Part shown: positions 28,757 to 47,614 of the stretch, in pieces
Position numbering within the stretch: the stretch's first letter is position 1
Layout: each line of letters starts with the position of its first letter
From: an uncultured Actinomycetes bacterium
GTDB taxonomy: Bacteria > Actinomycetota > Actinomycetes > UBA12327
Assembly: GCA_903920865.1 (NCBI GenBank)
Contig: CAIXNN010000073.1
Span: forward strand, 1-52,613
DNA length: 52,613 nucleotides
Direction of reading: 5' to 3'
Program-made: the position numbers and the translations under genes
The notes under the pieces: generated by a model
What the model saw: the letters and a program-made list of their open reading frames with translations, nothing else
What the model was told of the DNA's origin: nothing
The model's database searches: none

Positions 28757-29266
28757 ATGAACTCAGGACAGGGCACCCCGGTTTCGGCTTCTCGCGCACG
28801 TCTTGCGCATGTCATGCAAATAACTGACACGAACATTCATGGAAATATCCATGGTGGGGTGATCATGAAACTTGTTGATGAGGCCGCTGGGGCGTGCGCT
28901 CAGCGTCATTGTCGTGGCGGCCGAGCGGTGACGGTGGCGATGGACGAGATGGTCTTATCAGTGCCAGTGCATGTGGGTGACCTGGTTACCGCTTATGCAT
29001 CAGTTAATGGAACAGGCAAGACGTCAATGGAAATTGGCGTGCGCGTCACCGCTGAGCGCTTCGATGGCTCAGTTACTGCACCGGAGCACGTGGCCAGTGC
29101 CTATCTGGTCTTTGTTGGCATTGATGAGAACCAGCGCCCGATGGCCGTTCCTGCGGTCATTCCTGAAACTGATGAAGATCGTCGCCGCAATACCGAGGCC
29201 GATATTCGCCGTCAATCCAGACTTGACCACCGAGCAGCTATTGAGGCCTCGCGGCAACTGCGTTAG
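28757..29266 (+). CDS. Acyl-CoA thioesterase (hotdog fold, YciA/BACH type)
   Basis: A 169-residue hotdog protein that hydrolyses acyl-CoA to free acid and CoA. The family opening is ITDTNIHGNIHGGVIMKLVDEAAGACA, containing the acidic catalytic residue in the long helix, followed by VTVAMDEM and VHVGDLVTAYASV strands. The charged C-terminal tail is typical of the class. It starts at ATG 28757, 18 bp after the acyl-CoA dehydrogenase, so the two are probably one operon in acyl-CoA turnover. The stop TAG interlocks with the convergent LCP gene's stop at 29263-29266. Confidence 0.9.
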   Translation: MNSGQGTPVSASRARLAHVMQITDTNIHGNIHGGVIMKLVDEAAGACAQRHCRGGRAVTVAMDEMVLSVPVHVGDLVTAYASVNGTGKTSMEIGVRVTAERFDGSVTAPEHVASAYLVFVGIDENQRPMAVPAVIPETDEDRRRNTEADIRRQSRLDHRAAIEASRQLR

Positions 29267-30867
29267 GTGCAGGTTGTATCGGCTGCCGAGATTGATTTCA
29301 CGGCAGACTTTGGCGTGGCAGTGGAGATGACCACGCGCGTTGCTCCACTCCAGGTTGAACCAACGACCACCTGGAACGTGGTCCCTAGTCCGGTGACAGC
29401 CAGTGTGGTTGCATCGGGAAGTGCTGCTTGAAGTGTTTTGAGTTGGGCAGCATTTGATGGGTCGTATTTGATCACTGTGCCGGTTTGGCCGGTGACATCA
29501 GCATTCTTGGCTGGACCGGCCATCCCGAATCCGATACGTGCAAGATCATTAGCGGCTTTGGCACCTAAGCCTGCGACACCGGCCCCATTGAGGACCTGCA
29601 CCTTGATCAAGCCCGGCGGAATGGTGGCTTTAACGGCCGGTGGCTTGGGCACGACCGGTTCGTCATTGCGAAGTTTGGTAAATAGCTCGGTTGATTTCGG
29701 ACCGCTCCACAAAACAGAAGATCCAACACCTGGAACTCGGTAGTTGTCGTTAGAAAGTGGAACCGTCAAAAATTGAATTTGGTCGGCTTGAACATTTCGA
29801 AGGCGGTTAGCCAAATTCAGGATCGCTTTTTGGTCGAGCTGAGTATCTGTTGTCACTGAGGCCAACGCCGCATCAAGGAAAGCATTGAGCTTGAGTGGGT
29901 TTGTCAGGGTTTGTGCACTGAGCGCTTTGCGCGCCACGGAACCGATAAATGCTTGTTGAGCCCTGATCCGGCCGAGGTCTTGATCAGCGTAGATATGACG
30001 GGCTCGCACATAGGCCAAGGCTTGTGCTCCGTTGAGTAGGTGCTTTCCCTTAGACAGCTTCAGGCCACTGTCCTTGTCGTTGACAGCCGTTGCCACACAA
30101 ACCTGGGCACCCCCGATTGAATCAACAACTTTGACAAACCCGGCGATATTGACCTCAACGTAGTGGTCAATCTTCAGTCCGGTGTTGGCCTGAATAGTGC
30201 GAATGGTCAGCGTGGGACCGCCGTAGGAAAACGAAGCATTGATCTTGTTCTTTGATGCTGAATGCTTCTTTCCGTTCTTATCTGTGTAGGCCGGAATGCT
30301 CACGTAGGAGTCGCGGGGGAAGGAGACCAACGTGACCCGAGAGTTATCAGCTGAGATGTGCATCAAGATCATGGTGTCCGAGCGGGCACCTTGGTCCTTA
30401 CCCGTGGAAAGTTTGTTGCGCTGGCCGCGGGTGAGTCCTAACCGCGAATCAGACCCCACGAGCAAGATGTTCAGCGGAGCTCCGGGCTCGGGCGCTGCGG
30501 TGCGATCGCCAACGCCGGCGAAGACATCTTGTTTTGTGATTTTTCCTGTGTAGTTGTTCAGGGCGGTGTAACCAATCCCGCTCACACCCAAAATGATTAA
30601 GGCTGTGATTCCTGAGATCCAGCCGATGATCCGGCGGTAGTTGGGGCCTGTTTTTTTAGGCGCAGGAGCACGTGGGGATAGTTGCGGCGGAAGGCTCTCG
30701 CCAGTGTTGCCACCTGAGTCGGGGCGGAAGAAGTCGTCGTAGCCGCTCACTGGGGTATCCCATTCATGAGGGTTTGGACGAAGTTCAGGCCCGGCTGGTT
30801 CATATGGGTAATCGTAGAGATCTATTTCACGCAGTAACAGCGTGGGCGCGCCGGGCTGTAGGCACAC
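29263..30867 (-). CDS. LytR-CpsA-Psr (LCP) family protein
   Basis: About 534 residues. A Pro-rich cytoplasmic N-terminus, one membrane helix (IIGWISGITALIILGVSGIGY), then the extracellular LCP domain with the polyprenyl-phosphate-binding blocks LLVGSDSRLG, RSDTMILMHIS, LVSFPRDSYV and YVRARHIYADQDLGRI, and a C-terminal LytR_C domain (VQVLNGAGVAGLGAKAA). LCP enzymes transfer lipid-linked wall polymers onto peptidoglycan or other acceptors, which fits the polysaccharide locus beginning here. The start is uncertain: GTG 30867 is my choice; the frame is open to 30948 and a later GTG would remove the Pro-rich arm. It diverges from the GT2 gene, with 22 bp between the chosen starts. Confidence 0.9.
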   Translation of the reverse strand: MCLQPGAPTLLLREIDLYDYPYEPAGPELRPNPHEWDTPVSGYDDFFRPDSGGNTGESLPPQLSPRAPAPKKTGPNYRRIIGWISGITALIILGVSGIGYTALNNYTGKITKQDVFAGVGDRTAAPEPGAPLNILLVGSDSRLGLTRGQRNKLSTGKDQGARSDTMILMHISADNSRVTLVSFPRDSYVSIPAYTDKNGKKHSASKNKINASFSYGGPTLTIRTIQANTGLKIDHYVEVNIAGFVKVVDSIGGAQVCVATAVNDKDSGLKLSKGKHLLNGAQALAYVRARHIYADQDLGRIRAQQAFIGSVARKALSAQTLTNPLKLNAFLDAALASVTTDTQLDQKAILNLANRLRNVQADQIQFLTVPLSNDNYRVPGVGSSVLWSGPKSTELFTKLRNDEPVVPKPPAVKATIPPGLIKVQVLNGAGVAGLGAKAANDLARIGFGMAGPAKNADVTGQTGTVIKYDPSNAAQLKTLQAALPDATTLAVTGLGTTFQVVVGSTWSGATRVVISTATPKSAVKSISAADTTCT

Positions 30868-30889
30868 ATTGCCGGTACCGTCTGTGGAC

Positions 30890-31891
30890 GTGCAGAGTAG
30901 TAATTCAAGGCTGTGGCCGAGTGTGAGCATTGTCATGCCTGTGCTCAACGAGGAACTGCATCTGCAAGAGGCCGTTGAGCGGGTGCTGGCTCAGGATTAT
31001 CAAGGGCAATTAGATGTTGTTTTAGCCTTGGGACCTTCTACCGACGCCACTGATTCGATCGCTGCGCAATTAACCGCTACCGATCCGCGAGTGCGCACTG
31101 TGTCAAATCCAACCGGGCGCACAGCTGCTGGTTTGAACGCGGCAATTGCTGCTGCGAATGCGGAATCTGAGTTCATCATTCGCGTTGACGGTCACGCGAT
31201 GTTTCCGACGAACTACATTTCAACGGCAGTTAAGACTTTGCAGGAAACTGGTGCTGACAATGTCGGTGGTGTCATGGCTGCAGAAGGATCGACTGCCTTT
31301 GAGCGGGCTGTTGCGTGCGCTATGCGCTCCAGCCTGGGGGTTGGCGCAGCTGCTTTTCACGTGGGCGGCCAATCCGGCCCGGCTCCCACGGTGTATTTGG
31401 GAGCCTTTCGTCGCAGCGCATTAATTCGAGTCGGTGGTTATGACGAACGATTTGTGCGCTCACAGGATTGGGAAATGAATTTTCGGATCCGACAATCCGG
31501 CGGACAGGTGTGGTTCACCCCAGAGATGGAAGTCAGCTATCGGCCTAGGCCGAGCGTTGCCAAACTGGGTCGGCAATATTTTGAATACGGTCGTTGGCGA
31601 AGAGTAGTTATGCGCCGGCATCGCGGCACTGCGTCTTTTCGTTACTTGGCTCCGCCTGCCCTTGTGGTCGCACTTGTGCTCGGAGTTGTGGTGGGCATCG
31701 GCTGGTGGCCGGTGGGCTGGCTAGTCCCGGTTGGTTACGCGGCAGCTGTCGGCATCGGTGGTTTGTGGATTGGGCGCCGGCAAGGCCTTGCAGTTGCTTT
31801 GACTGTGCCGGTTGCACTTGCCACCATGCATTGTGCTTGGGGTGCAGGATTTCTCAGCTCACGCATTCGGGTGAGCCAGGATTCTTTCTAG
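30890..31891 (+). CDS. GT2 glycosyltransferase (ExoA-like) with C-terminal membrane region
   Basis: A GT-A fold family 2 transferase of about 333 residues, resembling succinoglycan ExoA. SVSIVMPVLNEE opens the nucleotide-binding domain, RVDGHAMF is the DxD-equivalent, SQDWEMNFRIRQSGG supplies the catalytic acid region, and FEYGRWRR matches the RxxRW-type motif. The last 85 residues hold two to three hydrophobic segments (PALVVALVLGVVVGIGWW and after), so it acts at the cytoplasmic face of the membrane on a lipid-linked acceptor. GTG 30890 is chosen (TACCGT eight bases upstream), but GTG 30923 is also possible. Its end overlaps the convergent GT4 gene by 33 bp. Confidence 0.88.
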   Translation: MQSSNSRLWPSVSIVMPVLNEELHLQEAVERVLAQDYQGQLDVVLALGPSTDATDSIAAQLTATDPRVRTVSNPTGRTAAGLNAAIAAANAESEFIIRVDGHAMFPTNYISTAVKTLQETGADNVGGVMAAEGSTAFERAVACAMRSSLGVGAAAFHVGGQSGPAPTVYLGAFRRSALIRVGGYDERFVRSQDWEMNFRIRQSGGQVWFTPEMEVSYRPRPSVAKLGRQYFEYGRWRRVVMRRHRGTASFRYLAPPALVVALVLGVVVGIGWWPVGWLVPVGYAAAVGIGGLWIGRRQGLAVALTVPVALATMHCAWGAGFLSSRIRVSQDSF

Positions 31892-32944
31892 AGCCTGTGC
31901 GAACAGGGGGCCTTGGCTTGTCCAGTCGTAGCTGCGTAGCGCTGCATCATGTCCAGCGCGTCCAAGTTCTTTGCGGCGTGTCTGATCATTTTTCAAACTT
32001 AGGATAGCCGCCGCCGCTGCTGCTGGATTTTCGAAGGGAACAATCAGCCCGCACTGTGCATCGTCAATGATGTCGATGGCTACCGGCAACGGCGTTGTGA
32101 TCACTGGAATGCCGTGCGCCATGTACTCGATGATCTTGGTGGGTTGTGAGTGGCGGTAATTGGGTTCATCGTGAAGTAGGCACACACCCGCGATCGCTCC
32201 ATCTAGCATCCCAAGCGCCTGATCATTGGGAACAAATCCGTGGGCGATCAGCTCACCTGCATCATGGGCCTGTCTGACTTGCTCAGCCACGCTGGGATGG
32301 ATGGGACCGATGAGTTCAACGCGAACTTGCCTGCCAAGTGTGCGGGCCATCTCAATCAGATCAAGAGCACCTCGCTGCTGTGTTACAGCTCCGAGGTAGA
32401 CCACGCGCTCAGCCGCAGATTCGCTAATCGTCTCGGGGACCCAGGTTGTGTTGGGGACAACGACCCCCAATTTTTTAAATCGGGCTTGGTAGGAGGCTTC
32501 AGCAAAGATCAAATGCACATGTGAACTAGCCCAACGCTCTGCCAGAGTGACCAAGCCAGCGGCGAGTGGACGAGCAAATGTGGGAATCCAAGCCTTCATG
32601 GACACAGCAGAGGCAGTATCTTCGTGTACGTCCCAAATGACCGGCGCCGTTTGTATCCCGCGTATTGCTAAGAGCAGTTCTGGATCATGGATCAGGATCA
32701 GATCGAAGTCATTGCCGCAGCTTTTGAGCAAATCGCGTGCCGCTCGTCTGGCTGCACCGCGAGAGCGAGCGCTGGCCCTTGGTAGATCTATTGCGGTTAC
32801 ACCGTCAGCGGGCTGGGCATCAAATGCGCTAAAGGGGGCAGCAAGGCTGACGTGGTGACCTGCGTTGATCAGAGCCGGGATTTGTCGGTGTGAAATCCGT
32901 GCATCACCTGGATGATGCACGATGGTGACAACCAGGACCTGCAC
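31859..32944 (-). CDS. GT4-type glycosyltransferase
   Basis: A 361-residue GT-B glycosyltransferase. The N-terminal half (MQVLVVTIVHHPGDARISHR) is the acceptor domain. The C-terminal half has the family 4 donor site: VVYLGAVTQQRG, then HSQPTKIIEYMAHGIPVITTPLP with the conserved Glu, and GLIVPFENPAAAAAAI. The opening HHPGDARI is typical of transferases adding amino or uronic sugars in exopolysaccharide clusters, but the sugar cannot be assigned. GTG 32944 lies five bases after the stop of the ABC ATPase gene, so it is the last gene of the minus-strand export operon. Confidence 0.88.
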   Translation of the reverse strand: MQVLVVTIVHHPGDARISHRQIPALINAGHHVSLAAPFSAFDAQPADGVTAIDLPRASARSRGAARRAARDLLKSCGNDFDLILIHDPELLLAIRGIQTAPVIWDVHEDTASAVSMKAWIPTFARPLAAGLVTLAERWASSHVHLIFAEASYQARFKKLGVVVPNTTWVPETISESAAERVVYLGAVTQQRGALDLIEMARTLGRQVRVELIGPIHPSVAEQVRQAHDAGELIAHGFVPNDQALGMLDGAIAGVCLLHDEPNYRHSQPTKIIEYMAHGIPVITTPLPVAIDIIDDAQCGLIVPFENPAAAAAAILSLKNDQTRRKELGRAGHDAALRSYDWTSQGPLFAQALERILAHPNA

Positions 32945-32949
32945 GTTAA

Positions 32950-33744
32950 TTACTTCTCAACGATGGCTTCGTAGGCGTCAAGTACCTCATTGACATCGCC
33001 ATCCATCTTCATCGCTCCTGCATCGAGCCAAATGGCCCGGTTGCACGTTTCTCGAATGACACCCAATGAGTGGCTAACCAGAAAGACCGTTCCAGCTTGG
33101 TCTCTCAAGGCCCGAATCCGCTCTTCGCTCTTGCGGCGGAACTCAGCATCACCGGTTGCAAGGGCCTCATCGATCAACAGCACATCGTGTGAAACCGAAG
33201 CCGCGATGGCAAATCGAAGTCGAGCACTCATACCTGAGGAGTAAGCATTCATCGGAAGCTCGACAAAGCTTCCAATACCAGCAAAGTCCACGATGGAGTC
33301 AAAGTTTTCGCGAACCTGTGTTGGAGTCATGCCCATGGCCAAGCCACCAAGCACAATGTTTTGTTCACCACTGAGGGAGTTGATCAGTGCGGCATTGACT
33401 CCAAGTAGCGATGGTTGGCAGTCGGTGAAAACGGTTCCCTTTTCCGGTGGAAGTAAGCCGGCGATGGCCCGCAGTAGCGTGCTCTTTCCGGATCCGTTGC
33501 GGCCGACAATCCCGATGGCATCGCCGTGATTGGCAACAAAGGTCACGCCTTGGATTGCTTTGATCTCACGTAAACCGGGAGCATTCTTGCGAGTCAAGAG
33601 GCGACTAAGGGCAGAGGCGCCATCGTTCTTGGCACCGGCAGGTTTTGGACCCATAACGCGATAGGTGACGTAGAGGTCGTCAACGATGACCGTGGGTTTT
33701 CCTACCGAGTCAGGATTAACCCGCTGAGTTTCAGCCGCGGCCAT
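32950..33744 (-). CDS. Polysaccharide/teichoic-acid export ABC transporter, ATP-binding subunit
   Basis: A 264-residue ATPase of the Wzt/TagH/KpsT group. GRNGSGKST is the Walker A, YSSGMSARLRFAIA is the signature, VLLIDEAL is the Walker B, and VSHSLG holds the switch His. It powers export of a lipid-linked polymer through the permease encoded just upstream. Its C-terminal end follows soon after the nucleotide-binding domain, so it lacks the carbohydrate-binding domain of Wzt from O9a-type systems. ATG 33744 is preferred because GGAG lies seven bases upstream; the upstream GTG/ATG in frame would lie well inside the permease. It overlaps the permease end by 14 bp. Confidence 0.93.
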   Translation of the reverse strand: MAAAETQRVNPDSVGKPTVIVDDLYVTYRVMGPKPAGAKNDGASALSRLLTRKNAPGLREIKAIQGVTFVANHGDAIGIVGRNGSGKSTLLRAIAGLLPPEKGTVFTDCQPSLLGVNAALINSLSGEQNIVLGGLAMGMTPTQVRENFDSIVDFAGIGSFVELPMNAYSSGMSARLRFAIAASVSHDVLLIDEALATGDAEFRRKSEERIRALRDQAGTVFLVSHSLGVIRETCNRAIWLDAGAMKMDGDVNEVLDAYEAIVEK

Positions 33745-34612
33745 AGCGTGACTCCGCTCGCCAGAAGAAGATGAATCCACCAATGAGCGGCACGATGGCC
33801 CAGGCGATGGCCAAGTACCAGTTCCATACAGGCGTATTGGTCTGTGCCGTATTCAATAGCGCATCTCGAGCAAGTTGGATGTACACAGCAGCCGGATTTG
33901 CTTCGAGCAAGATGGTGATAATCGGGTGGCCATCATGATGCTTAACAAAATCGCTGATCAGGTACATCACTCCGGATAGATACATCCAGATGCGCAACGC
34001 AAACGGCAAGAACTGTGCAACGTCTCGAATTTCAGCGGTAAGACGGGCAAACACCAAGGCAATCCCTGCGCTGAACATCAACTGGAGCAAGATCACCGGA
34101 ATGAGCAGAAGCCATTGAGCCGTTGGGGCTTCTCCGGTTAACACGACCAGTACTGCAAGAACGATCAAGGACGTTCCGGTCTTTACCAATTCCTCAATGA
34201 CATTGGCGAAGGGCAGGACGGCGCGCGGAAAGTGCAACGCGCGCACGAGGCCGAGGTTGCCACTGATCGATCGTGAGCCGGCCATGATCGTTCGACTCGA
34301 AAAAGCAAAAATGAAGACCCCGGTTAACAAGAAGGCGATGTAGTGCTCAATCTTCTTGCTCTGGCCCAAGATGACACCGAAGACGAGGTAGTACACCCCG
34401 GCGTTCAAGAGTGGATTGAGTACTTGCCACAGCTGCCCTAAGCGCGATTCAGCGTTCTCGGCTGCAATGCGACTGCGGGCAAAGGTCCAGATAAAAAATC
34501 GGCGTTCCCACAGGGCTTGCATGTACGCCTTGAGGGCTGGTTGGCGCCCGATTGGCGTGAGGCCAAACTCTGCTGCCATGGCAGCTGGTGCGCTGCGATC
34601 AATCGCGGTCAC
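33731..34612 (-). CDS. Polysaccharide/teichoic-acid export ABC transporter, permease subunit
   Basis: A 293-residue ABC-2 type permease (Wzm/TagG). After about 50 cytoplasmic residues with the typical amphipathic region RFFIWTFARSRIAAENAESRLGQLWQVLNPL, six hydrophobic segments follow, the last ending in FFWRAESRYGRG. It forms the membrane channel for export of an undecaprenyl-linked polymer. GTG 34612 overlaps the stop of the upstream dehydrogenase (GTGA), and its own end overlaps the ATPase gene, so all three are translationally coupled. Confidence 0.93.
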   Translation of the reverse strand: MTAIDRSAPAAMAAEFGLTPIGRQPALKAYMQALWERRFFIWTFARSRIAAENAESRLGQLWQVLNPLLNAGVYYLVFGVILGQSKKIEHYIAFLLTGVFIFAFSSRTIMAGSRSISGNLGLVRALHFPRAVLPFANVIEELVKTGTSLIVLAVLVVLTGEAPTAQWLLLIPVILLQLMFSAGIALVFARLTAEIRDVAQFLPFALRIWMYLSGVMYLISDFVKHHDGHPIITILLEANPAAVYIQLARDALLNTAQTNTPVWNWYLAIAWAIVPLIGGFIFFWRAESRYGRG

Positions 34613-35886
34613 AGGCGCTCCACTGTGGGTCCTTCAGCTTTTCCACGAGTATCAAGCAAGAGCGGTGCGTTCTTGGCCACCACATCAAGATCCATAGTGG
34701 AGTGATTTTGAACCAAAATCGCGATGTCGCAATTCTTAAGGCCGCTGACTAGGTCGTCAGCGCGGGTGGTGGCCACACCATCGACGTGCCAATTGGTCAC
34801 ATGGGGATCAAAATAAGAAACCTTCGCGCCAAGGGATGCAAGCTGTTGTGCAAGTGGTTCTGCTGGAGATTCGCGTTGGTCTGCAATATCGGGTTTGTAG
34901 GTGACACCAAGGATGAGCACTGTCGAGCCATTCATGGGCTTTGCTGCAGTGTTCAACATGTCTTGTGCCCGGTGCGTCACATAGGCCGGCATCGAATTAT
35001 TCGTGGCTTGGGCTAGTTCAATAAATTGCGACGGCGCACCGAGTCGAGCGCGCACCTGATAGGACAAGTACATCGGGTCGATGGGGATGCAGTGGCCACC
35101 CACGCCAGGACCTGGATAGAAGGCTTGAAAACCAAAGGGCTTGGACTTAGCGGCTTCAATTACGTCCCAAAGATCAATCCCGAGTTCATGGCAGAACTTG
35201 GCCATCTCGTTGACCAGACCAATGTTGACCTGGCGGTAGGTGTTTTCAAGCAGTTTGGCCATTTCGGCCTCGCGGGTACCTTTGGCCTCAACCACAGTGT
35301 CAACAAATTGGCGATAAAACGTAGCTGCTTTGGTCGTGCACTCTGGTGTGTGGCCGCCCACAACCTTGGGAGTGTTCTTCATGCCATAGACAGGGTTGCC
35401 TGGGTCAATGCGTTCGGGCGAAAAGGCCAGCGAGAAATCCTTACCGGCGATCAGTGAGGTTGCTTCTTCCAAGATGGGTCGCACTTGCTCATCAGTGGTG
35501 CCTGGGTAGGTCGTGGATTCAAGGACAACCAAAGTTCCCGGGGTGAGATGCTCAGCGATAGTGCGAATGGAGGTCAGAACTAATGTCAGGTCGGGGCCAC
35601 CATCGGCTCCCAACGGGGTCGGAACACACACGATCACCGCATCGGCCCGAGCGATGACAGATGCGTCACTGGTGGCACTAAAACCGGTGGCCAGCATTGC
35701 AGCGATATCCAGGTCAGTTAGGTCATCTACATGAGAGCGACCGGCGTTGAGTCCGTCAATGACACGCGGAACAACATCGAGCCCGGTAACGCGCAGTCCA
35801 GACCGGCAAGCCTCCTGAGCTAGCGGAAGGCCCACATACCCCAGGCCTATGACGACGAGATCAATGCGATCAGCACCGTTACTCAC
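34609..35886 (-). CDS. UDP-N-acetylhexosamine 6-dehydrogenase (WbpA/WecC type)
   Basis: A 425-residue NAD-dependent nucleotide-sugar dehydrogenase. GLGYVGLPLAQEA is the Rossmann motif, ESTTYPGTTDE and FSPERIDPGN follow, and PGPGVGGHCIPIDP contains catalytic Cys266. The FGFQAFYPGPG run before it resembles WbpA, which oxidises UDP-GlcNAc, more than Ugd; oxidation of UDP-ManNAc (WecC) is the alternative, favoured by the wecB homologue at 37721. Either way the product is an N-acetylated uronic acid. GTG 35886 follows the large GT4 gene after 21 bp in the same operon. Confidence 0.9.
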   Translation of the reverse strand: MSNGADRIDLVVIGLGYVGLPLAQEACRSGLRVTGLDVVPRVIDGLNAGRSHVDDLTDLDIAAMLATGFSATSDASVIARADAVIVCVPTPLGADGGPDLTLVLTSIRTIAEHLTPGTLVVLESTTYPGTTDEQVRPILEEATSLIAGKDFSLAFSPERIDPGNPVYGMKNTPKVVGGHTPECTTKAATFYRQFVDTVVEAKGTREAEMAKLLENTYRQVNIGLVNEMAKFCHELGIDLWDVIEAAKSKPFGFQAFYPGPGVGGHCIPIDPMYLSYQVRARLGAPSQFIELAQATNNSMPAYVTHRAQDMLNTAAKPMNGSTVLILGVTYKPDIADQRESPAEPLAQQLASLGAKVSYFDPHVTNWHVDGVATTRADDLVSGLKNCDIAILVQNHSTMDLDVVAKNAPLLLDTRGKAEGPTVERL

Positions 35887-35907: not shown

Positions 35908-37650
35908 CTAGCTCGAACGCCCCAACGGAACGCCTAATTGCTCGTACGCATCGCGATAAAGGCGTGCAACTTGGTCCCATGTTCGATGTTCTAAGACCCA
36001 GGATCTGGCTGCATTTCCTAACCGACTCCGCAGTTCAGGATCGTACAGTAGTGGCGCGATGGCGTCGGCTAACGCAACCGCGTCATCGGGTGTGACCAGG
36101 ACCCCATTTTCGCCGTGGGAAATGACTTCCGCCAGGCCACCAACGTTGCTTGCCACCACTGCTCGGGCTGTTGCCATGGCTTCAATGGGTTTCAGTGGTG
36201 TCACAAGGTCACTAACTCTGGCCTTAATTCGGGGAACACAGAACACGTCAATGGCGCTGTAGTAGCGATGGATGTCGTTGAAGGGCACCCGACCGGTGAG
36301 AAGTGAGATCTGCTCAAGTCCGACCGCTTTGATCTGTCGCGCAATCGATTCGCGCTCGGGCCCATCTCCAACAATGAGGAGTCGAACAGGTGCACCTTGA
36401 TCTCGAAGGATTCGCACGGCGTCAATCAGCGTCGGGATTCCCTCGTGGGCATACAACGTGGAGATCACCCCAATGGTGATTTCGTTATCGGCTATGCCAA
36501 GTTCGTAGCGAAGTTCAACTGCGCTGGTTTGTGCTTCAAGGAATCGTGCATCAACGGCATTTGGCGCGACAACAATTTTCTCTGGCGCAATACCCCGCGA
36601 GATAATTTCATCGCGCATAACGGTGCCTAAGGTGGTCACCAGATCGGCACTGGCCATCACGGATGTTTCAAGTGCTCGTTCAAGTCGGTAGCGATCGGTT
36701 TCGCGTCCACTCGTGCCGTCAGTATCAACCCGTCGAGAAAGCCAGGATTCCTCAAGGAATCCACGAACTTCATAAACCACAGGCAGGCCAAAGCGCTCGC
36801 GCAGGGCTAGTGCGACCTGGCCATTGCGGTGATTAGAGGCCGGATGCAGGACCGCTGGCCGCAGTTGGGCGACTACCTGAGCGGCTGCATCAATTTCCTG
36901 CTCAATGGATGGCCTTAAGGCAACGGGCTTAAGTGGGAGTAACCGGTGATAGGAAATTCCATCAACGATGTCTAGGTGTTGTGCGCCAAGTACTCCTTGG
37001 GCAACCGGAAATCCCCACCGTGTGAGTGCATGCGGATCAAGTCCTACATCTTTTTGGGCTCTCAAAATTTGATGGGTGCGCGTGGTGTACCCCGCATGGG
37101 CATGTGGCAACGAATTAGTCACAAGGTGAAGTACTCGACCAGGAATTCGGACAAGTTCTTCAGCAGGTGATTTCCGCCAATTGTGTGGCGTCAGCGCGCC
37201 AAGATCAGCTTCGTAGGTTGACAGTAAGCCAGCATCAGATCTGTGTGCCGAACCCTTGAGCGTCGCGATAGCTTTTTCAAGTTCTCCTTGCTTCCACTGC
37301 AAACGTGCCGTGAGCTGTTGTTTATGCGGATCGCTGGCTGGTAAATCGCGGAGTAGGTCGGTGGCAAGGTCGGTGTTGTTTTGAGCAATCGCGATGGCGA
37401 TCAGCCGGCGGGCTATTCGCGCAGAAGTTTTTTTCTGTGAGGTGGCATCTTCGATGCTGGCTCCTTGAACAAGGGCCAGGTCCGGTCGCGATACGAACGG
37501 CTTGAGCAGACCCTCAGGGAGAGCCTCAATGAGCTTGACCGCTGTTGCGGCGGGGTCGGATCGCAGACGGCGGAGCGCTACCACTGTGGCAACGGGTGAA
37601 TTACGCACCATGTTGACGGCCACAGTTGCGGTGGTGCGCAGATTCGGCAC
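35908..37650 (-). CDS. Large GT4-type glycosyltransferase with N-terminal helical repeat region
   Basis: A 580-residue protein. Residues 1-165 are helical, with a basic opening and a TPR-like part (LATDLLRDLPASDPHKQQL, WKQGELEKAIATLKG). From about 168 it is a GT-B transferase: RVLHLVTNSLPHAHAGYTTR, YEVRGFLEESW, and a donor domain with VAPNAVDARFL, TIGVISTLYAHEGI, LIVGDGPERE and LTPLKPIEAMATARAVVASN. It probably builds a surface glycan; sugar specificity is unknown. GTG 37650 has GGAGAG six bases upstream. It is the first gene of the five-gene export operon. Confidence 0.88.
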   Translation of the reverse strand: MPNLRTTATVAVNMVRNSPVATVVALRRLRSDPAATAVKLIEALPEGLLKPFVSRPDLALVQGASIEDATSQKKTSARIARRLIAIAIAQNNTDLATDLLRDLPASDPHKQQLTARLQWKQGELEKAIATLKGSAHRSDAGLLSTYEADLGALTPHNWRKSPAEELVRIPGRVLHLVTNSLPHAHAGYTTRTHQILRAQKDVGLDPHALTRWGFPVAQGVLGAQHLDIVDGISYHRLLPLKPVALRPSIEQEIDAAAQVVAQLRPAVLHPASNHRNGQVALALRERFGLPVVYEVRGFLEESWLSRRVDTDGTSGRETDRYRLERALETSVMASADLVTTLGTVMRDEIISRGIAPEKIVVAPNAVDARFLEAQTSAVELRYELGIADNEITIGVISTLYAHEGIPTLIDAVRILRDQGAPVRLLIVGDGPERESIARQIKAVGLEQISLLTGRVPFNDIHRYYSAIDVFCVPRIKARVSDLVTPLKPIEAMATARAVVASNVGGLAEVISHGENGVLVTPDDAVALADAIAPLLYDPELRSRLGNAARSWVLEHRTWDQVARLYRDAYEQLGVPLGRSS

Positions 37651-37720: not shown

Positions 37721-38806
37721 ATGAGCCCCGTTATCCATGTGACTGGTGCTCGGCCGAATTTTCCGAAGGCGGCGCCGGTCTTGGCTGCCCTCCAGGCTCG
37801 CGGGATTGAGCAAATGTTGGTTCACACTGGCCAACATTACGACGACAAGATGTCGGAGATTTTCTTTCGTGAATTGGGCCTTCCTCAACCCGATGTCAAT
37901 CTCGGTGTTGGCTCCGGAAGCCATGCCGTCCAAACGGCAGCCATCATGGTCGGCCTGGAAGAGCTGTTCATCAAGCATCAACCGCCGTTGGTCATTGTCT
38001 ATGGCGATGTGAACTCAACTGTTGCCGCAGCTTTAGTGGCATCGAAATTGCATATTCCCGTTGCCCATGTTGAAGCCGGTCTTCGCTCCTTTGACATGAC
38101 CATGCCAGAAGAGGTAAACCGGCGCCTGACTGATCAGTTATCTGATGTTTTGTTAGTTACCAGTGAAGATGCCATCGGCCACCTCACGAGCGAGGGAGTT
38201 GATGCGGACCGGATTCATTTCGTTGGTAACTCCATGATCGATACTTTGCTTGCACATCTTGATTCCTTTGATGTTGACAAGGCGCGGGCTGCCTATTTAC
38301 TCAACGGCCCTTATGTTGTTGCAACGTTGCATCGGCCAGCCAATGTTGACTCCATGGAATCTGCTCGAGAACTCGTGGAGGTCTTGCACCAGATCGCCGA
38401 TCGCCTGGACGTGGTTTTCCCGCTCCATCCCCGTGGCCGGGCCACGTTAGAGGCGGCTGGATTGCTCGATCATCAGCGTGTTCACGTGGTGGATCCGCTG
38501 GGCTATACCGAATTTATTTCCCTGGTGCGGGGATCATCAGCAGTCGTGACGGATTCGGGTGGTGTGCAAGAAGAAACCACAGTCTTAGGTGTTCCGTGTT
38601 TAACCCTTCGGCCAAATACCGAACGGCCAGTGACCATCACGAATGGAACAAATCAACTCGTTACCACGCAAAGCGTCATTGGCGCCCTTGATGCTGTTTT
38701 GGCTGCGCCCCAAACGGGTGAACACGCAGTTCCAGAACTGTGGGACGGCAAAGCAGGACCTCGCATTGCTGATGTGATTGAGAATTTCCTTAGGGGCCGG
38801 TCTTGA
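37721..38806 (+). CDS. wecB: UDP-N-acetylglucosamine 2-epimerase (non-hydrolysing)
   Basis: A 361-residue epimerase interconverting UDP-GlcNAc and UDP-ManNAc, or a WbpI-like relative acting on a modified sugar. VTGARPNFPKAAPV binds UDP, HTGQHYDDKMSE, YGDVNSTVAAA and HVEAGLRSFD with PEEVNRRLTDQ form the active site, and DSGGVQEETTVLGVPCLTLR is the donor-domain block. Together with the dehydrogenase at 34609-35886 it would supply UDP-ManNAcA. ATG 37721 has GAAAGG five bases upstream. Its stop overlaps the next gene's TTG start by 4 bp. Confidence 0.93.
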   Translation: MSPVIHVTGARPNFPKAAPVLAALQARGIEQMLVHTGQHYDDKMSEIFFRELGLPQPDVNLGVGSGSHAVQTAAIMVGLEELFIKHQPPLVIVYGDVNSTVAAALVASKLHIPVAHVEAGLRSFDMTMPEEVNRRLTDQLSDVLLVTSEDAIGHLTSEGVDADRIHFVGNSMIDTLLAHLDSFDVDKARAAYLLNGPYVVATLHRPANVDSMESARELVEVLHQIADRLDVVFPLHPRGRATLEAAGLLDHQRVHVVDPLGYTEFISLVRGSSAVVTDSGGVQEETTVLGVPCLTLRPNTERPVTITNGTNQLVTTQSVIGALDAVLAAPQTGEHAVPELWDGKAGPRIADVIENFLRGRS

Positions 38807-41124
38807 GTATTCGCATCAACGAGTTACTGACCCCATACGCGGCGTCTTGGTCAGGTGTCATCGACGCAGGATCTGGTGACATTGATGTAGATTCATTCGT
38901 TCGACTTCCCGGACTTCAGATCACCAAAGTTGGCCGCCAGGGTTTCGATGGTGATGCCATCAGCCCAGATGGATTGAGTTTGGATGATCGCGCGCTGGTC
39001 GTTGTCACTGCCGGACCTAAGCCGCACTATCACGGCACATCACGGTTGGCCTTTGCCATGTTGGAACAGGTGGCCCCGGGTGGTTATGTCTTACTTATGC
39101 TCGGCTGGACGGCGCCGCAACTTCGCGAAGCAGGTCTAGGCGCTCAACTTGCCGGGGCTGGGTTCGATCCTGAAGAAGTCGTCGGGACTCCCTACGTCTC
39201 GCTCCCGGTGGCGGTTTTGGCTCGTCGAACCCGATCAGGCTCTGGCGAAGTGGACGAAAATGCGATGGCCGCATTTGATCAGGCACTTGCCGAGGTGGCC
39301 GCTGTTCGGCTAGGCGAAGAGGTTGCTCAACTCAAAGAAGCCTTGTCAACAAGGGGGAGTCAGACTGACCCGACTCTGCGGTTGACCGAGTTGACGCGTG
39401 AGCGAGCAGAACTGACCACTGCGCTGCGTGAAGCGCAAGGGCAATTGCGAAGTGCTGAACGCAAAATCATTTCGCTGGAATCTTCTTCGTCTATGCGAGT
39501 AGGTCAGGCCCTGATCGGTGCGGCCAAGAACCCACGTAAGGCGTTGAAACTTCCGCGTGAAGCTGCTCGGATGTTGAAATTGCGTGGTGGTCGTGCCGGG
39601 ATTGCCAAAGCCCGCACCTTGCAAGGCGCGACTGAGGAGCCAACTCATTCGCCAGAGATTAAGCGACTGGTTGCTTGGCGAGGGGCTGGTTTGGACCCGC
39701 GCACCAAGCTCTCTATTGCCGGCGCGCTCCAACCATCAACGGTTGCAACCCTGAGCGGACATGCATTTGTATCGACGATCACCCCCGATGATGCGGTCGC
39801 TGTTATTGAACAAGGCGATCCCGATGTGGTTCTGATCGAAACCGCTACGGCTCGGCCGTCCTCACCGTGGGCCTACTTGGCAGACCCGGCAGCCACCGAG
39901 CGAGAAGCGCGCTTGCAGTCGGCCGTTGAAGCCGCACAAGTTGCTGGTCGCCCTGTTGTTTTTTGGCGCAATACGGCAGTTCATCTCACCGCCGCGTTGG
40001 ATGATTTTGCGGCTACCTGTGATCTGGTCCTTGACAGCGCACCGGCGCGCGCCGGTGGAACGTATTGGTCCCCAGGGGTGGATCTGGCAAGTGGTTTTGC
40101 CGCCACCGGAGGTGATCGCTCTGGCGTTTTGTATGTGGGCGAGCTTGATCCTCGGTTGAGTGCGCCTCGGCAACAACTGCTTTTGGATGTACTTGATGCT
40201 GCTGGATCAGATTTGCTCATTAGGCCCCGAGCAATGGCCAATGATGACCAGCCCTTCCCCGACAGGCTCACTGCCTACGTGGGGAGCAGTGTTCGCCCTG
40301 ACGAATTAGCCTCGGCATACAAGAGTGCGGCGGTGGTACTGGCCTCACCCTTAGTTGTCTCTTCCTCATTGATGGGACTTTCCGACGAGCACCTGCTCGC
40401 CCTAGCTTGTGGGGCGCGAGTTGTCAGTGGTCCCAATCAAGACCTTGCGGCCCTTGAGGGATTCGGTTCGGCTTTGGTTGTAGCCCAAGATGTGGTTGGC
40501 GCTGTCCAAAACGCTGTTGCCTTGGGTGCTCAAACTCGCCATGAATACCTCAACACCCTGCGCACGCTGTTCTTGCATCACAGTGTTCCCGCTCGACTCA
40601 AGCAACTAGCTGACGAATTGGCCCTGGCCATGCCAGCGAATCAATCTCGCGCCGTCAGTGTTGTTCTGGCGCCCGGCGATGACCTCAATGCGGCGGCCCT
40701 GATTGATGCCCTGGCCATACAAAGCTGGAAACCACATGAGGTGATCGTTAGTTCAGCAGATGTGCCAAGTCCGCGAGCACTGGATGAACTGACAGCGATG
40801 GGAGTCAAGGTGCTCACTATTGACGGGTCAACCTGGAGTGATTTGGCTCGGGCAACGGATGCGCATTGGGTCGCTGTTTGGTCCTCGGCTGCCGGTGAGA
40901 ACCACTGGCACGAGAACACTCTGCTTGATCGCCTGGTGGTGGGTGAGGCCACCGGGTCCGATGGTGTGGGCGCTGGTGGAGTTCTGTGTGTACTTGATTC
41001 ATCGCGACGCATCAGTGGTCCTGTGTTACTCAAGCGAACCAGCATTCTTGAAGTCTCGTCAGTGGATCTGGATCAATGGCATAACGCCGGACGCCGTTTC
41101 TTTGGTGTGGAGGATGCCCAATGA
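38803..41124 (+). CDS. Multi-domain protein: Rossmann/coiled coil/CgeB-like GT-B/GT2-like
   Basis: A 773-residue protein of unusual build. Residues 1-145 look like a Rossmann or methyltransferase-like fold (LLMLGWTAPQLREAGLGAQL) without a clear SAM loop. Residues 160-228 are a coiled coil. A basic segment follows (MRVGQALIGAAKNPRKALK, from 231). Residues 310-605 resemble the CgeB/GT-B group (ATCDLVLDSAP, GVLYVGELDPRL, LLALACGARVVSGPNQ), ending in YLNTLRTLFLHHSVPARL. The last part (615-760) begins like a GT2 domain (VSVVLAPGDDLNAAALIDAL) but I see no DxD, so it may be inactive. The start is TTG 38803, coupled to wecB by TTGA. Transferase function is likely; the sugar is unknown. Confidence 0.8.
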   Translation: MSIRINELLTPYAASWSGVIDAGSGDIDVDSFVRLPGLQITKVGRQGFDGDAISPDGLSLDDRALVVVTAGPKPHYHGTSRLAFAMLEQVAPGGYVLLMLGWTAPQLREAGLGAQLAGAGFDPEEVVGTPYVSLPVAVLARRTRSGSGEVDENAMAAFDQALAEVAAVRLGEEVAQLKEALSTRGSQTDPTLRLTELTRERAELTTALREAQGQLRSAERKIISLESSSSMRVGQALIGAAKNPRKALKLPREAARMLKLRGGRAGIAKARTLQGATEEPTHSPEIKRLVAWRGAGLDPRTKLSIAGALQPSTVATLSGHAFVSTITPDDAVAVIEQGDPDVVLIETATARPSSPWAYLADPAATEREARLQSAVEAAQVAGRPVVFWRNTAVHLTAALDDFAATCDLVLDSAPARAGGTYWSPGVDLASGFAATGGDRSGVLYVGELDPRLSAPRQQLLLDVLDAAGSDLLIRPRAMANDDQPFPDRLTAYVGSSVRPDELASAYKSAAVVLASPLVVSSSLMGLSDEHLLALACGARVVSGPNQDLAALEGFGSALVVAQDVVGAVQNAVALGAQTRHEYLNTLRTLFLHHSVPARLKQLADELALAMPANQSRAVSVVLAPGDDLNAAALIDALAIQSWKPHEVIVSSADVPSPRALDELTAMGVKVLTIDGSTWSDLARATDAHWVAVWSSAAGENHWHENTLLDRLVVGEATGSDGVGAGGVLCVLDSSRRISGPVLLKRTSILEVSSVDLDQWHNAGRRFFGVEDAQ

Positions 41125-43337
41125 CGCGCGCGCTGGTTTATGGAGATGTCAACTTAAACATCATTGATGGCTCGGCGATCTGGGCCCAATCAATGGTCGA
41201 AGCCCTTTCGCGAGCAGGCGTTGAGGTGACTCTGGTTTTGAAGGCGAAGATTAAGACGGGTCGCTTAGTCGATCCCATCGCTGCCATGGATGGGGTGCGA
41301 GTCATTCGCCCCTTTGAAGATGGTTTAGTCCGTGGTGGCGATTCAATGAATGCATCGCAGGCCGTCAAACTTATGAAAACGCTGGATGATCAAACGCCGT
41401 TTGATCTTGTGGTGATGCGGGGACTGCGTGCCGTAGATGCCGCCGTAGGGTCAGGACACTTTGATGGGCGACTTTGGACCTACCTGACCGATATTCCGCA
41501 AACGGTCACTGCTTTCGATCAAGCAGCCATTGAGCGGTTGGAACGCATCAGTGCGGCGAGTCGCTTCATGTTGTGCCAAACCGAAGAACTGCGATGCTTC
41601 TTAGAAAGTGCAGTTGATGCAGCCTGTGGTCGCAGTGTTATCTGGACTCCCTTAGTGCCTGAACTTGATTTCGCCTTGCCAGATCGTCCGAAGTTGGAAA
41701 ATCGAGCAGTCCGTTTGGTGTACACCGGCAAATTCGCGCCGCTGTGGAATACCTTGGAGATGACCTCATTGCCACAACGCTTAGCCGAGCGCTCGGTTGA
41801 GGCAGAGCTAAACATGGTCGGGGACAAGGTCCATGAAGTTCCAGCTGATCCGAGCTATTCATCACGCATGAAGTCAGCCCTTGAGTCCACTGAAGGTGTC
41901 ATCTGGCACGGCGGGATGCCACGTCAAGAGGCGATGAAGAAATCGGCGCAGATGGACCTGGGATTGTCCTGGCGTGATCCGGAAATGGATGCATCTCTTG
42001 AACTCTCGACCAAGGTTCTCGAATTTGGCGCCTTGGATGTTCCAGTGATCATGAATCGCACCCAAATGCATGAGGACCTGTATGGCATTGACTACCCACT
42101 GTTTGTACAAGGCGAAGATGATGTGGTCGATGCCATCGTGGGAGTAGTTCAAGATCCGCAGCTGTACGCACTTGCCCTTCAACGATGCCGGCAGGTGTCG
42201 GCGAAATTTTCAATGGCCGTTGCCGTGGAGCGAATGAAGCAATATCTCAATCGCGCACTGCCCCAGGGCAAAGATGTCGCCCCCGCCTTGGCCAATCGCA
42301 GTGAAAAGCTCAAGGTCGTCGTGGCCAGCCACGACTTGAAGTTCTTCTCCCGCATGTTGGATTACTTCCAAGCATTGCCTGAAATGGAAGTGCGCACTGA
42401 TCAGTGGTCGGCCCTATCGGTCCACGATCCTGCTCAATCGCAGGAAATGTTGGATTGGGCCGATGTGATCGTGGCTGAATGGTGTGGCCCGGTCGCGGTT
42501 TGGTATTCCCAGCGCAAGAAGCCTCATCAGCGACTGATTGTTCGCCTTCACCGCTTCGAGCTCGATGGCCCTTGGATCAAGGATGTTGACATCAACAACG
42601 TTGACCAATTGGTGTGCGTAAGTCCGTTCTATGCACAGCTCACCGCTGAAAAAAGTGGTTGGCCGAAGGAAAAGATTGTGGTTGTCCCGAACTGGGTGGA
42701 CTACGAGCAACTAGATCGACCGAAGTTGGCCGGGGCGCAGTTCCATCTAGGAATGATTGGTATCGCTCCGATGCGCAAACGCATGGACGTTGCACTCGAT
42801 GTGCTGGAAATTGTTCGCCGTCATGATGATCGTTTCATGTTGTTCGTTAAGACCAAGATGCCATGGGATTACTGGTGGATTTGGCGTCATGCAGAAGAGC
42901 AAAAGCATTACAACGAGATCTTCCAAAGGATCCAAACCAACCCATACCTACAAAATGCTGTGGTCTTTGATGACTTTGGTGGCGACGTGGCTGCCTGGCT
43001 GCGTCGGATCGGCTGGGTGTTGTCAACCTCGGACGATGAAAGCTTCCATCTAGCCCCGGCTGAGGGGATGGCCTCGCGCGCGGTACCTGCTCTGGTTCCT
43101 TGGCCCGGGTCGGACACGATTTATCACCCCCGTTGGATCGATGCAGATATTGAGGCCATGGCCGATCGGATTTTGACCACGGTGCGAGAAGGCCACTGGC
43201 TCGAAGAAGGGCAGAAAGCGCAGGATCACCTGTTGGCTTCGTTCCCTCTTGATGCTGTGTGTGGGACATGGACGTCGTTGTTACTGGAAAATATTTCGCC
43301 AGACACGGCTAACGGGACCCTAGCTCCGGCTCATTAA
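41121..43337 (+). CDS. Tandem GT-B glycosyltransferase (two GT4-like units)
   Basis: A 738-residue protein with two GT-B-like halves. The first, up to about residue 390, has RALVYGDVNLNIIDGSAIW, RLVYTGKFAPLWNTLEM and a donor region LELSTKVLEFGALDVPVIMNR with the expected Glu. The second, from about 395, begins afresh with KLKVVVASHDLKFFSRMLDY and contains IVRLHRFELDGPW, VVPNWVDYEQLD, HLGMIGIAPMRKRMDVAL and HLAPAEGMASRAVPALVPW. Each half looks complete enough to be active, so it may add two sugars in turn. ATG 41121 overlaps the upstream stop (ATGA). Its own stop interlocks with the convergent gene at 43334-43337. Confidence 0.83.
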   Translation: MTRALVYGDVNLNIIDGSAIWAQSMVEALSRAGVEVTLVLKAKIKTGRLVDPIAAMDGVRVIRPFEDGLVRGGDSMNASQAVKLMKTLDDQTPFDLVVMRGLRAVDAAVGSGHFDGRLWTYLTDIPQTVTAFDQAAIERLERISAASRFMLCQTEELRCFLESAVDAACGRSVIWTPLVPELDFALPDRPKLENRAVRLVYTGKFAPLWNTLEMTSLPQRLAERSVEAELNMVGDKVHEVPADPSYSSRMKSALESTEGVIWHGGMPRQEAMKKSAQMDLGLSWRDPEMDASLELSTKVLEFGALDVPVIMNRTQMHEDLYGIDYPLFVQGEDDVVDAIVGVVQDPQLYALALQRCRQVSAKFSMAVAVERMKQYLNRALPQGKDVAPALANRSEKLKVVVASHDLKFFSRMLDYFQALPEMEVRTDQWSALSVHDPAQSQEMLDWADVIVAEWCGPVAVWYSQRKKPHQRLIVRLHRFELDGPWIKDVDINNVDQLVCVSPFYAQLTAEKSGWPKEKIVVVPNWVDYEQLDRPKLAGAQFHLGMIGIAPMRKRMDVALDVLEIVRRHDDRFMLFVKTKMPWDYWWIWRHAEEQKHYNEIFQRIQTNPYLQNAVVFDDFGGDVAAWLRRIGWVLSTSDDESFHLAPAEGMASRAVPALVPWPGSDTIYHPRWIDADIEAMADRILTTVREGHWLEEGQKAQDHLLASFPLDAVCGTWTSLLLENISPDTANGTLAPAH

Positions 43338-44500
43338 GCCAAGCGGAGACGAAGCTCGCTGAAGAAGTGAGCACTGAGTGTGTTGGCATTGAATGCTTCG
43401 GCTCGCGCCCGAGCTGCAGCTCTGGCGGCCGGGTTGAGCAGGCGATCTGACGTTCGCATGGCGCGAAGCAGATCATCGCTATGTCCGGGATCAAAGGTGA
43501 CCGCAAAGTCTTCGGTAATGACTTCACGGGTGCTGCTCAGGGCTGGCACGATTGCCGGCAGACCAAAACTCATCGCTAACAACAGCACGCCAGAGTTTAA
43601 TGAGCGTCGATAGGGCAAAACAGCAATGTCAGCGGCATTTAAGTAGCGCTGCAGATCCACGTCGGAAACTCTCTCCGCGCGCAAATGCACGTATGGGTTC
43701 ATCTCGCATTGCACAAGCAGCTCATCGACCGAACCGTCAGCATCTGGCTTGCCTGCTACTACCAAAACCCGCTTACCAGGGTCTTCGGCTGACAAGACGT
43801 CAAAGGCTTGGAGTAGTTCGTCAAGTCCCTTGTAGGGCTTGATGGCACCAAGGAGTGTGTACACAATCTGATCTTCTTCAACTCCGATGTCAAAGCGCGC
43901 CTGTTGGCGAGAGACAAGATTTGGATAAGCATCGATGTAATTCGGGTGCGCGACATGAACAATTTTGCTCGCTGGGATTTCGAATTGGTCTGCAACAGCC
44001 TCACTGGTCGATCGAGTTAAGACGTGCACCACGATGGAGCGTTCAACAATCTCCTGTTGAAGGCGCGCCTCTAGTTCGGGAAACCGGCAGTCATGGGGCA
44101 AAACATTGTGGATGGTCCACACAATCTTTCCACCGGCTGCCACGAACTGGTCCAGTACATGAATGAATTGGGCCAGAGCAGCCCTTGCCTCAAGCTCGTT
44201 CTCAATTCCGCGTAGCACCTCCAGCGTCCAGTGAAGGTGCAAGATCGGGGTTGCTTGACCATCACATGCTGCGCGGAAAGTTTCAAAGTCTGCCGGGCTA
44301 CTGAGCGCCACGGGAGCAAACCCACTTTCCCATGCATCGGCGTACAGCAATGACTGATAGGGGTTTGATCGCGCGGCTGGCCAGTAGCCGAGTACTGTCG
44401 GGTTGTCAGCTTTACTTTGTTCAAGACTGCGCAATGCAGCTAACGTCTCAACGAGTACCCGACCGTCGTAGGGGGTGGCCCCTCTAATAGATCCGTACAT
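43334..44500 (-). CDS. GT4-type glycosyltransferase
   Basis: A 388-residue GT-B protein. The acceptor half contains HLHWTLEVLRGIENE and KIVWTIHNVLPHDCRFPELE, a block common in transferases of the GumK/mannosyltransferase sort. The donor half has YTLLGAIKPYKGLDELLQAF, LVVAGKPDADG, and NSGVLLLAMSFGLPAIVPALSSTREVI. The residue equivalent to the family Glu is less obvious here. The ATG at 44500 overlaps the preceding gene's stop by one base (TGATG), so it is coupled to the coiled-coil/TPR gene. The sugar substrate is unknown. Confidence 0.87.
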   Translation of the reverse strand: MYGSIRGATPYDGRVLVETLAALRSLEQSKADNPTVLGYWPAARSNPYQSLLYADAWESGFAPVALSSPADFETFRAACDGQATPILHLHWTLEVLRGIENELEARAALAQFIHVLDQFVAAGGKIVWTIHNVLPHDCRFPELEARLQQEIVERSIVVHVLTRSTSEAVADQFEIPASKIVHVAHPNYIDAYPNLVSRQQARFDIGVEEDQIVYTLLGAIKPYKGLDELLQAFDVLSAEDPGKRVLVVAGKPDADGSVDELLVQCEMNPYVHLRAERVSDVDLQRYLNAADIAVLPYRRSLNSGVLLLAMSFGLPAIVPALSSTREVITEDFAVTFDPGHSDDLLRAMRTSDRLLNPAARAAARARAEAFNANTLSAHFFSELRLRLA

Positions 44501-47588: not shown

Positions 47589-47614
47589 GAAAGCACTTGG
47601 TCAAAGGAGAATTT

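Follow-up and report, generated by a model that had tools for sequence, protein, structure and literature searches.

A catalytically degenerate, multi-domain glycosyltransferase homologue as a putative scaffold for a neighbouring dual GT-B enzyme in a predicted wall-polymer locus of an uncultured Actinomycetes bacterium

The window considered here is a stretch of 52,613 nucleotides (contig CAIXNN010000073.1 of assembly GCA_903920865.1, positions 1 to 52,613) from an uncultured Actinomycetes bacterium of the UBA12327 lineage, and it carries a polysaccharide locus in which the gene for a 773-residue multi-domain pseudo-glycosyltransferase (pseudo-GT) is lodged between wecB and the gene of a dual GT-B glycosyltransferase (dual GT-B). 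The reading frame of the pseudo-GT (38803-41124, forward strand) is open, starts with TTG and occurs as a single copy in the host genome (1.68-Mb assembly, 92 contigs), and Shine-Dalgarno-like purine runs precede both of its overlapping junctions. Pfam and NCBIfam alone give a single sub-threshold glycosyltransferase match for the protein. A preliminary description of this DNA had divided the protein into five parts, and the layout was borne out by the open frame and by model and profile comparisons made for each domain. The gene and its parts are as follows:

38803..41124, forward strand: 773-residue multi-domain pseudo-glycosyltransferase (open reading frame and homologues)
38803..38806, forward strand: TTGA overlap of the wecB stop and the pseudo-GT start, with AGGGG just 5'
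38803..39237, forward strand: residues 1-145, predicted class I methyltransferase fold with degenerate S-adenosylmethionine (SAM) motif I (predicted local distance difference test score, pLDDT, 82; top Z 9.4; motif counts)
39256..39483, forward strand: residues 152-227, coiled-coil helices (structure models; zone 190-227 in 33 of 33 family rows)
39484..39588, forward strand: residues 228-262, basic amphipathic segment, proposed membrane docking (charge, amphipathicity, invariant columns)
39706..40092, forward strand: residues 302-430, CgeB-like N-terminal Rossmann half of the GT-B unit (R1; in all family rows, hhalign)
40111..40638, forward strand: residues 437-612, C-terminal half of the GT-B unit (R2), degenerate (P 2.5e-8 to PF13524 controls)
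40396..40398, forward strand: Leu532 codon, at the place of the conserved GT-B Glu/Asp (alignment)
40639..41121, forward strand: residues 613-773, predicted GT-A (GT2-like) domain without DxD (model and profiles)
40876..40902, forward strand: residues 692-700, the DxD place (VWSSAAGEN; alignment)
41121..41124, forward strand: ATGA overlap of the pseudo-GT stop and the dual GT-B start, with GGAGG 5'

The comparisons draw on 393 genomes of the class, sampled as one genome per species in even draws, and a pseudo-GT match was found in 43 of them, two of which (G274 and G374) hold intact relatives. The 33 family rows comprise the window protein, relatives from 30 of the 43 matching genomes and three Actinomadura relatives; the relatives in G011, G049, G093 and G173 were inspected by eye only, outside the family alignments, and start codons and gene lengths of relatives in the sampled genomes are estimates. 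Controls were 30 methyltransferases, 30 PF13524 proteins and 30 GT2 proteins, all from genomes of the class and taken as the 30 best loci per family search, one per genome, rather than as random draws.

Residues 302-612 are clearly, by sequence descent, a CgeB-like GT-B unit whose catalytic Glu/Asp has been lost. The Pfam model PF13524 reaches 17.9 bits on the window protein (cut-off 25) and matches only 1 of 17 family members at E up to 0.05, while a profile of the 30 PF13524 controls singly detects three of the 33 family rows, the window protein included. In profile-profile comparison (hhalign), R1 matches the CgeB-GT2 enzyme family discussed below at P 3e-11 and R2 matches the PF13524 controls at 95% (P 2.5e-8); the assignment of the R2 region rests on such sequence profiles because the full-length AlphaFold model is poor at residues 412-577, with pLDDT mostly below 50. 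The Glu/Asp that precedes the A-x-A-C/S-G stretch was present in all 30 controls (26 Glu, 4 Asp) and in none of 25 family rows, its place being taken by Leu532 in the window protein. An origin of the GT-B unit from a duplicated half of the neighbouring dual GT-B was also considered and is unsupported (hhalign P 0.008 and 0.57); the lowest values between the unit or its halves and the halves of the dual GT-B, 0.0028 for R1 and 0.0085 for the whole unit, are unconvincing.

Residues 613-773 are modelled as a GT-A fold, with GT2 homology but no DxD motif at its aligned place. The model aligns to 6yv7 with Z 11.6 and a root-mean-square deviation of 3.4 over 149 residues, although nucleotidyltransferases of like fold score nearly as high. 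A profile hidden Markov model (HMM) of the GT2 controls did not detect the domain in single family sequences; compared profile to profile, the two meet at P 4.4e-5, against P 0.06-0.5 for unmatched pairs of domain and control set. At the aligned column, DxD was found in 29 of 30 GT2 controls but in only 1 of 28 family rows. It is absent from the window protein, as the preliminary description had said of this GT2-like end, and no intact GT2 site was found.

What the protein may once have been is suggested by its intact relatives. A search with the coiled-coil/basic segment led to a 692-residue protein of genome G020 in which a similar segment precedes a CgeB GT-B and a GT2 that are both intact (RRVFELSAC and MDDDN, respectively), and both intact relatives scanned, of which this is one, exceed the Pfam cut-offs of PF13524 and PF00535. 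Coiled coil, basic segment, GT-B and GT-A stand in the same order in both proteins; the catalytic Glu and DxD are present in the intact enzyme and absent from the 773-residue protein, whereas the methyltransferase-fold N-terminus is present only in the latter. The profile alignment of residues 190-773 of the pseudo-GT family (29 rows) with 27 relatives of the G020 protein (E 2.2e-27) spans 504 columns, beginning in the coiled coil and extending into the GT-A domain, and the N-terminal domain profile has no match to the CgeB-GT2 family (P 0.14). Because of this homology, the coiled-coil/basic/GT-B/GT-A layout can be regarded as an old one, and the impression that the layout was unique has to be given up: intact CgeB-GT2 proteins with coiled coil and basic segment occur in the class, in the same locus slot. 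Among the CgeB-GT2 relatives, the GT-B position is Glu/Asp in 23 of the 25 rows with a residue there and the GT-A position reads DDD in 22 of 27. In a tree that took the CgeB-GT2 relatives longer than 500 residues (21 of 27), these and the 33 family rows are split by a long branch with support 1.0, the root being unfixed. Sequence searches of the PDB found nothing for the window protein (E up to 1) or for an intact relative (E up to 0.001), and a search with the family profile returned weak rows only.

The pseudo-GT family is also unevenly eroded. The coiled-coil zone, basic segment and R1 are kept in 33 of 33 rows; R2 is at least 60 residues long in 25 and missing in eight, the GT-A domain is at least 70 residues long in 28 and missing in five, and the reading frame of the Actinomadura macrotermitis relative has 271 residues only. 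From these counts the dead domains appear optional and the core of coiled coil, basic segment and R1 obligatory. Such erosion bears on whether the protein might still be an active transferase with unusual residues, either a DxD-free GT-A or a Glu-less GT-B, adding one sugar of the repeat. An active enzyme would suit the retained fold and domain order, the full set of domains in the window protein, the GT-A fold recognisable in its model and the constraint on R2 in one pair (L003/L004, ratio of nonsynonymous to synonymous substitution rates, dN/dS, 0.19). We nonetheless regard this as rather unlikely, given catalytic residues in 0 of 25 and 1 of 28 rows against 30 of 30 and 29 of 30 in controls; moreover, neither glycosyltransferase activity can be the conserved function, because in several relatives the donor-side half of the GT-B unit or the GT2 domain is missing altogether. 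The preliminary description had pictured a scaffolded transferase that holds its acceptor with one domain and acts with another. The scaffold part of that picture stands, but a division of holding and acting between two domains of one protein is unlikely because the GT-B Glu is lost (0 of 25) and R2 is missing in 8 of 33 rows. Catalysis probably falls to the separate dual GT-B encoded by the adjacent gene, which keeps Glu301, Glu640 and Glu648 in 30 of 30 rows.

The N-terminal domain had been called Rossmann-like. It is indeed a separate domain, predicted from three sequences as a single unit (pLDDT 82, predicted template modelling score 0.81), but its modelled fold is specifically that of a degenerate class I methyltransferase whose SAM motif is lost, and not a generic Rossmann domain; among the terminal parts it alone fell into another family. 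Of the 50 entries listed by VIA, 31 reach Z 8.0-9.4, most of them methyltransferases, and Foldseek gave a best E of 3e-4 to class I methyltransferases. The structural matches include human fatty acid synthase, at its pseudo-methyltransferase region. Where methyltransferases have a helix after the SAM loop, the model shows one of three residues, and motif I, [D/E]xGxGxG, is found in 0 of the 10 family rows that have this domain against 25 of 30 methyltransferase controls, with the shorter [D/E]xGxG in two of the ten, one of them the window protein. A profile HMM of the methyltransferase controls did not detect the domain in single family sequences. The assignment rests on the predicted fold because even the profile-profile signal is weak (hhalign P 0.0016). 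The domain is absent or nearly so in 23 of the 33 rows.

Part of the constant core of the protein follows this domain. Structure models place coiled-coil helices at 152-183 and 190-227, and the latter zone is short and of near-constant length (34-42 residues in the family rows). The basic segment 228-262 has a net charge of +8 in the window protein and of +5 to +10 in all 33 rows, includes 18-residue windows that rank among the most amphipathic in the protein (99.6th percentile) and carries 6 of the 12 columns invariant across 17 aligned sequences (S228, G234, A241, P244, L250 and P251). Membrane contact of the 773-residue protein is suggested by this amphipathic +8 segment only. In genome G070 (L037:8097-9260), an intact methyltransferase adjoining the dual GT-B ends C-terminally in the same coiled-coil/basic module; its catalytic part is 58% identical to the methyltransferase encoded at 47597-48322 of the window, which is without this tail. 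Because the module is also found at the end of the G070 protein, it would act like a docking tag for more than one locus protein, and it may be a shared one.

These features recall the machinery of ABC-dependent O antigens, which we consider the best precedent for the arrangement, by analogy. An excerpt of PMC11231755 describes WbdD as a coiled-coil protein with a distal methyltransferase-kinase and as a membrane scaffold that recruits the dual-glycosyltransferase polymerase WbdA. The window resembles that part of the account in its ABC-exporter locus, dual-glycosyltransferase enzyme, separate coiled-coil protein encoded with that enzyme, distal methyltransferase fold and membrane-near segment. 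It differs in the lost motif, the frequent absence of the N-terminal domain, the short coiled coil, the two glycosyltransferase remnants and the bacteria concerned, and the two systems are compared by their parts and not by sequence. A ruler or terminator of the WbdD kind, in which the N-terminal domain would sense or cap the chain end and the coiled coil would set chain length, could draw on this common parts list (coiled-coil scaffold, distal methyltransferase and dual-glycosyltransferase polymerase, as given in the same excerpt) and on the fusion of methyltransferase, coiled coil and basic module in G070. It is quite unlikely here: an active terminator is not apparent, with the SAM motif missing (GxGxG in 0 of 10), no kinase among the Pfam matches and the N-terminal domain in only 10 of 33 rows, and the coiled-coil zone is short and near constant (34-42 residues in the 190-227 zone).

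The pseudo-GT gene is maintained by purifying selection, because whole-gene dN/dS is 0.15-0.34 in four pairs; three of these pairs give 0.06, 0.07 and 0.14 for the coiled coil and basic segment. That the gene is decaying en route to loss and held only by its operon position (polarity) is therefore very improbable, for although the domains erode across the class, relatives are only 26-45% identical to the window protein (WecB 59-81% and dual GT-B 54-75% in the loci compared) and five family BLAST matches cross stop codons, all 33 rows can be read as one open frame after end trimming, dN/dS is well below 1, residues in the coiled coil, basic segment and R1 are invariant and the gene is kept in 37 of 39 genomes with the dual GT-B.

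The association with the dual GT-B is close. A dual GT-B match (E up to 1e-60) occurs in 47 of the 393 genomes, and in the 40 that have both genes these lie on the same contig and strand in 40 of 40, with the pseudo-GT upstream and within 1.5 kb of match ends in 39. A full-length dual GT-B match was accompanied by a pseudo-GT family match in 37 of 39 genomes; G173, missed in this count, has a family member found by segment profile only, which leaves G076. In the stretches examined, the loci with family matches are polysaccharide loci, and because 43 of 393 genomes match and the examined stretches are of this kind, the layout is more than chance. The check for the same architecture in actinobacterial polysaccharide loci, proposed with the preliminary description, turned up relatives in such loci. 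A genome of another genus in the same family has a relative 44% identical over residues 2-749, and relatives were also found in one Candidatus Nanopelagicales genome and three Actinomadura species; a scan of named genomes gave no relative with a single-protein query and five with a close-alignment query. In G156 (C154:2449-2994), a weak family match has three in-frame stops and no dual GT-B match, possibly a case of true decay.

The slot after wecB is filled differently elsewhere in the class. In G020, G160, G214, G130, G057, G145 and G274, the wecB/wecC/GT4 cluster has a CgeB-GT2 enzyme right after wecB, and the WecB of these seven stretches is 59-70% identical to that of the window. No dual GT-B was found in the seven stretches and none of the seven genomes is in the dual GT-B match list; nor is any of the eight genomes whose enzyme shares at least 70% identity with the G020 protein. 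Among all 20 genomes with matches to the G020-type enzyme, three are in the dual GT-B list (G011, G173 and G191). In one stretch of G173 (L237, G173:C1:476001-495000) the dead form and the dual GT-B occur together with two CgeB-GT2 genes, possibly an intermediate state.

The cluster GT4-(ABC)-WecC-GT4 / WecB-pseudo-GT-dual GT-B recurs across the class. Gene content was determined by tblastn for 16 stretches and elsewhere with a simple gene caller that mis-calls some high-GC genes. In the window the neighbouring genes are:

29263..30948, reverse strand: LytR-CpsA-Psr (LCP) protein, wall attachment
31859..34612, reverse strand: GT4 and TagGH-like ABC exporter (permease 33731-34612, ATPase 32950-33783)
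34609..35886, reverse strand: nucleotide-sugar dehydrogenase, nearest to UDP-ManNAc dehydrogenases (WecC-like; below equivalog cut-offs)
35908..37650, reverse strand: GT4 glycosyltransferase of the conserved cluster
37721..38806, forward strand: WecB, UDP-GlcNAc 2-epimerase (TIGR00236, 306 bits, cut-off 210)
41121..43337, forward strand: dual GT-B glycosyltransferase, 738 residues, proposed catalytic partner (conserved Glu motifs in both halves)

From this gene content, an exported, wall-attached glycopolymer with N-acetylmannosaminuronic acid (ManNAcA) is predicted as the product of the locus. Further genes encode a GT2, heparinase-like proteins and a methyltransferase. Two heparinase II/III-like proteins (45612-47483 and 48433-50217) flank the methyltransferase gene and are possibly polymer lyases or enzymes that handle uronic acid. 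A 338-residue reading frame (44500-45516, reverse strand) was matched by neither Pfam (E up to 0.01) nor NCBIfam (E up to 0.001).

Taken together, we think it probable, if well short of certain, that the 773-residue protein is a catalytically dead CgeB-GT2 descendant kept as a membrane-docking scaffold or activator for the dual GT-B in the synthesis of a ManNAcA-type wall glycopolymer. A wider proposal, that the dual GT-B displaced an older CgeB-GT2 polymerase across the class and that the dead body was kept as its obligate partner, a pseudoenzyme of three folds that was trimmed in some lineages, is tentative and has somewhat less than an even chance. The ancestor would have been a bifunctional glycosyltransferase with coiled coil, CgeB GT-B and GT2, encoded right after wecB in similar loci. 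In this lineage the dual GT-B encoded directly downstream would have taken over catalysis; the old enzyme would have lost its active sites, with some lineages carrying the dead methyltransferase-fold N-terminus, and been retained to place and support the dual GT-B. Translational coupling at the ATGA may keep both proteins at matched levels, the coiled coil may oligomerise and the basic amphipathic segment may dock on the inner face of the membrane. In active GT-B enzymes the N-terminal half is the acceptor side, and the remaining R1 might hold the dual GT-B, the lipid-linked acceptor or both. The dual GT-B would add two sugars in turn, one probably ManNAcA; transport of the chain would then fall to the ABC exporter and its attachment to the wall to the LCP protein.

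Several observations weigh against this interpretation. L009 has D-G-D at the DxD place of GT2, and some D-x-D occurs within a wider 50-residue zone in 9 of 28 family rows, although in eight of these it lies further on, in the stretch corresponding to ADAV, off the aligned place. Some CgeB-GT2 relatives are themselves not intact (2 of 25 without Glu/Asp, 5 of 27 without DDD). The dN/dS of the coiled coil and basic segment is 0.38 in the pair L003/L004, and one value for the N-terminal domain is 0.68. In G076 a weak dual GT-B match (32%) stands without any family match, in G011 the order of the two genes is reversed, and three genomes with family matches are without a dual GT-B, namely G274 and G374, with intact enzymes, and G156. 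Four genomes of the same genus (G001-G004, completeness 60-93%) have no match to either gene, so the surface-polymer locus is patchy. As the genomes are related, the counts are not independent and their significance is inflated. Finally, WbdD and the helper protein EryCII discussed next are analogies only.

Pseudoenzyme partners of glycosyltransferases are known case by case. EryCII is inactive as a P450. This P450 homologue is required as an activator of its partner glycosyltransferase EryCIII, according to an excerpt of PMC3391682, and the pair resembles the pseudo-GT and dual GT-B as helper and glycosyltransferase; its fold differs and it serves antibiotic glycosylation, not a wall polymer. 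For the polymer itself, a membrane-bound multi-subunit complex makes ManNAcA-containing teichuronic acid in Micrococcus luteus (PMC3005890, in part), but the synthetase subunits of about 52.5 and 54 kDa given there do not fit proteins of 773 and 738 residues. The Streptomyces Utr teichuronic locus is another gene set, going by the part of PMC13274773 at hand. No paper on the pseudo-GT family was among the matches listed from open-access titles and abstract starts, which does not prove that the family is unpublished.

If the scaffold or activator reading is true, this family would be one of few visible examples of an enzyme that has become a supporting component. As the active enzyme, its inactive descendant and several degrees of erosion can be compared in one gene slot, it becomes testable which portion of a displaced enzyme a polymerase requires to go on working. 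The finding also points to a scaffold and a dual glycosyltransferase for wall polymers of the ManNAcA type in actinobacteria, where little is known of the genes for such polymers.

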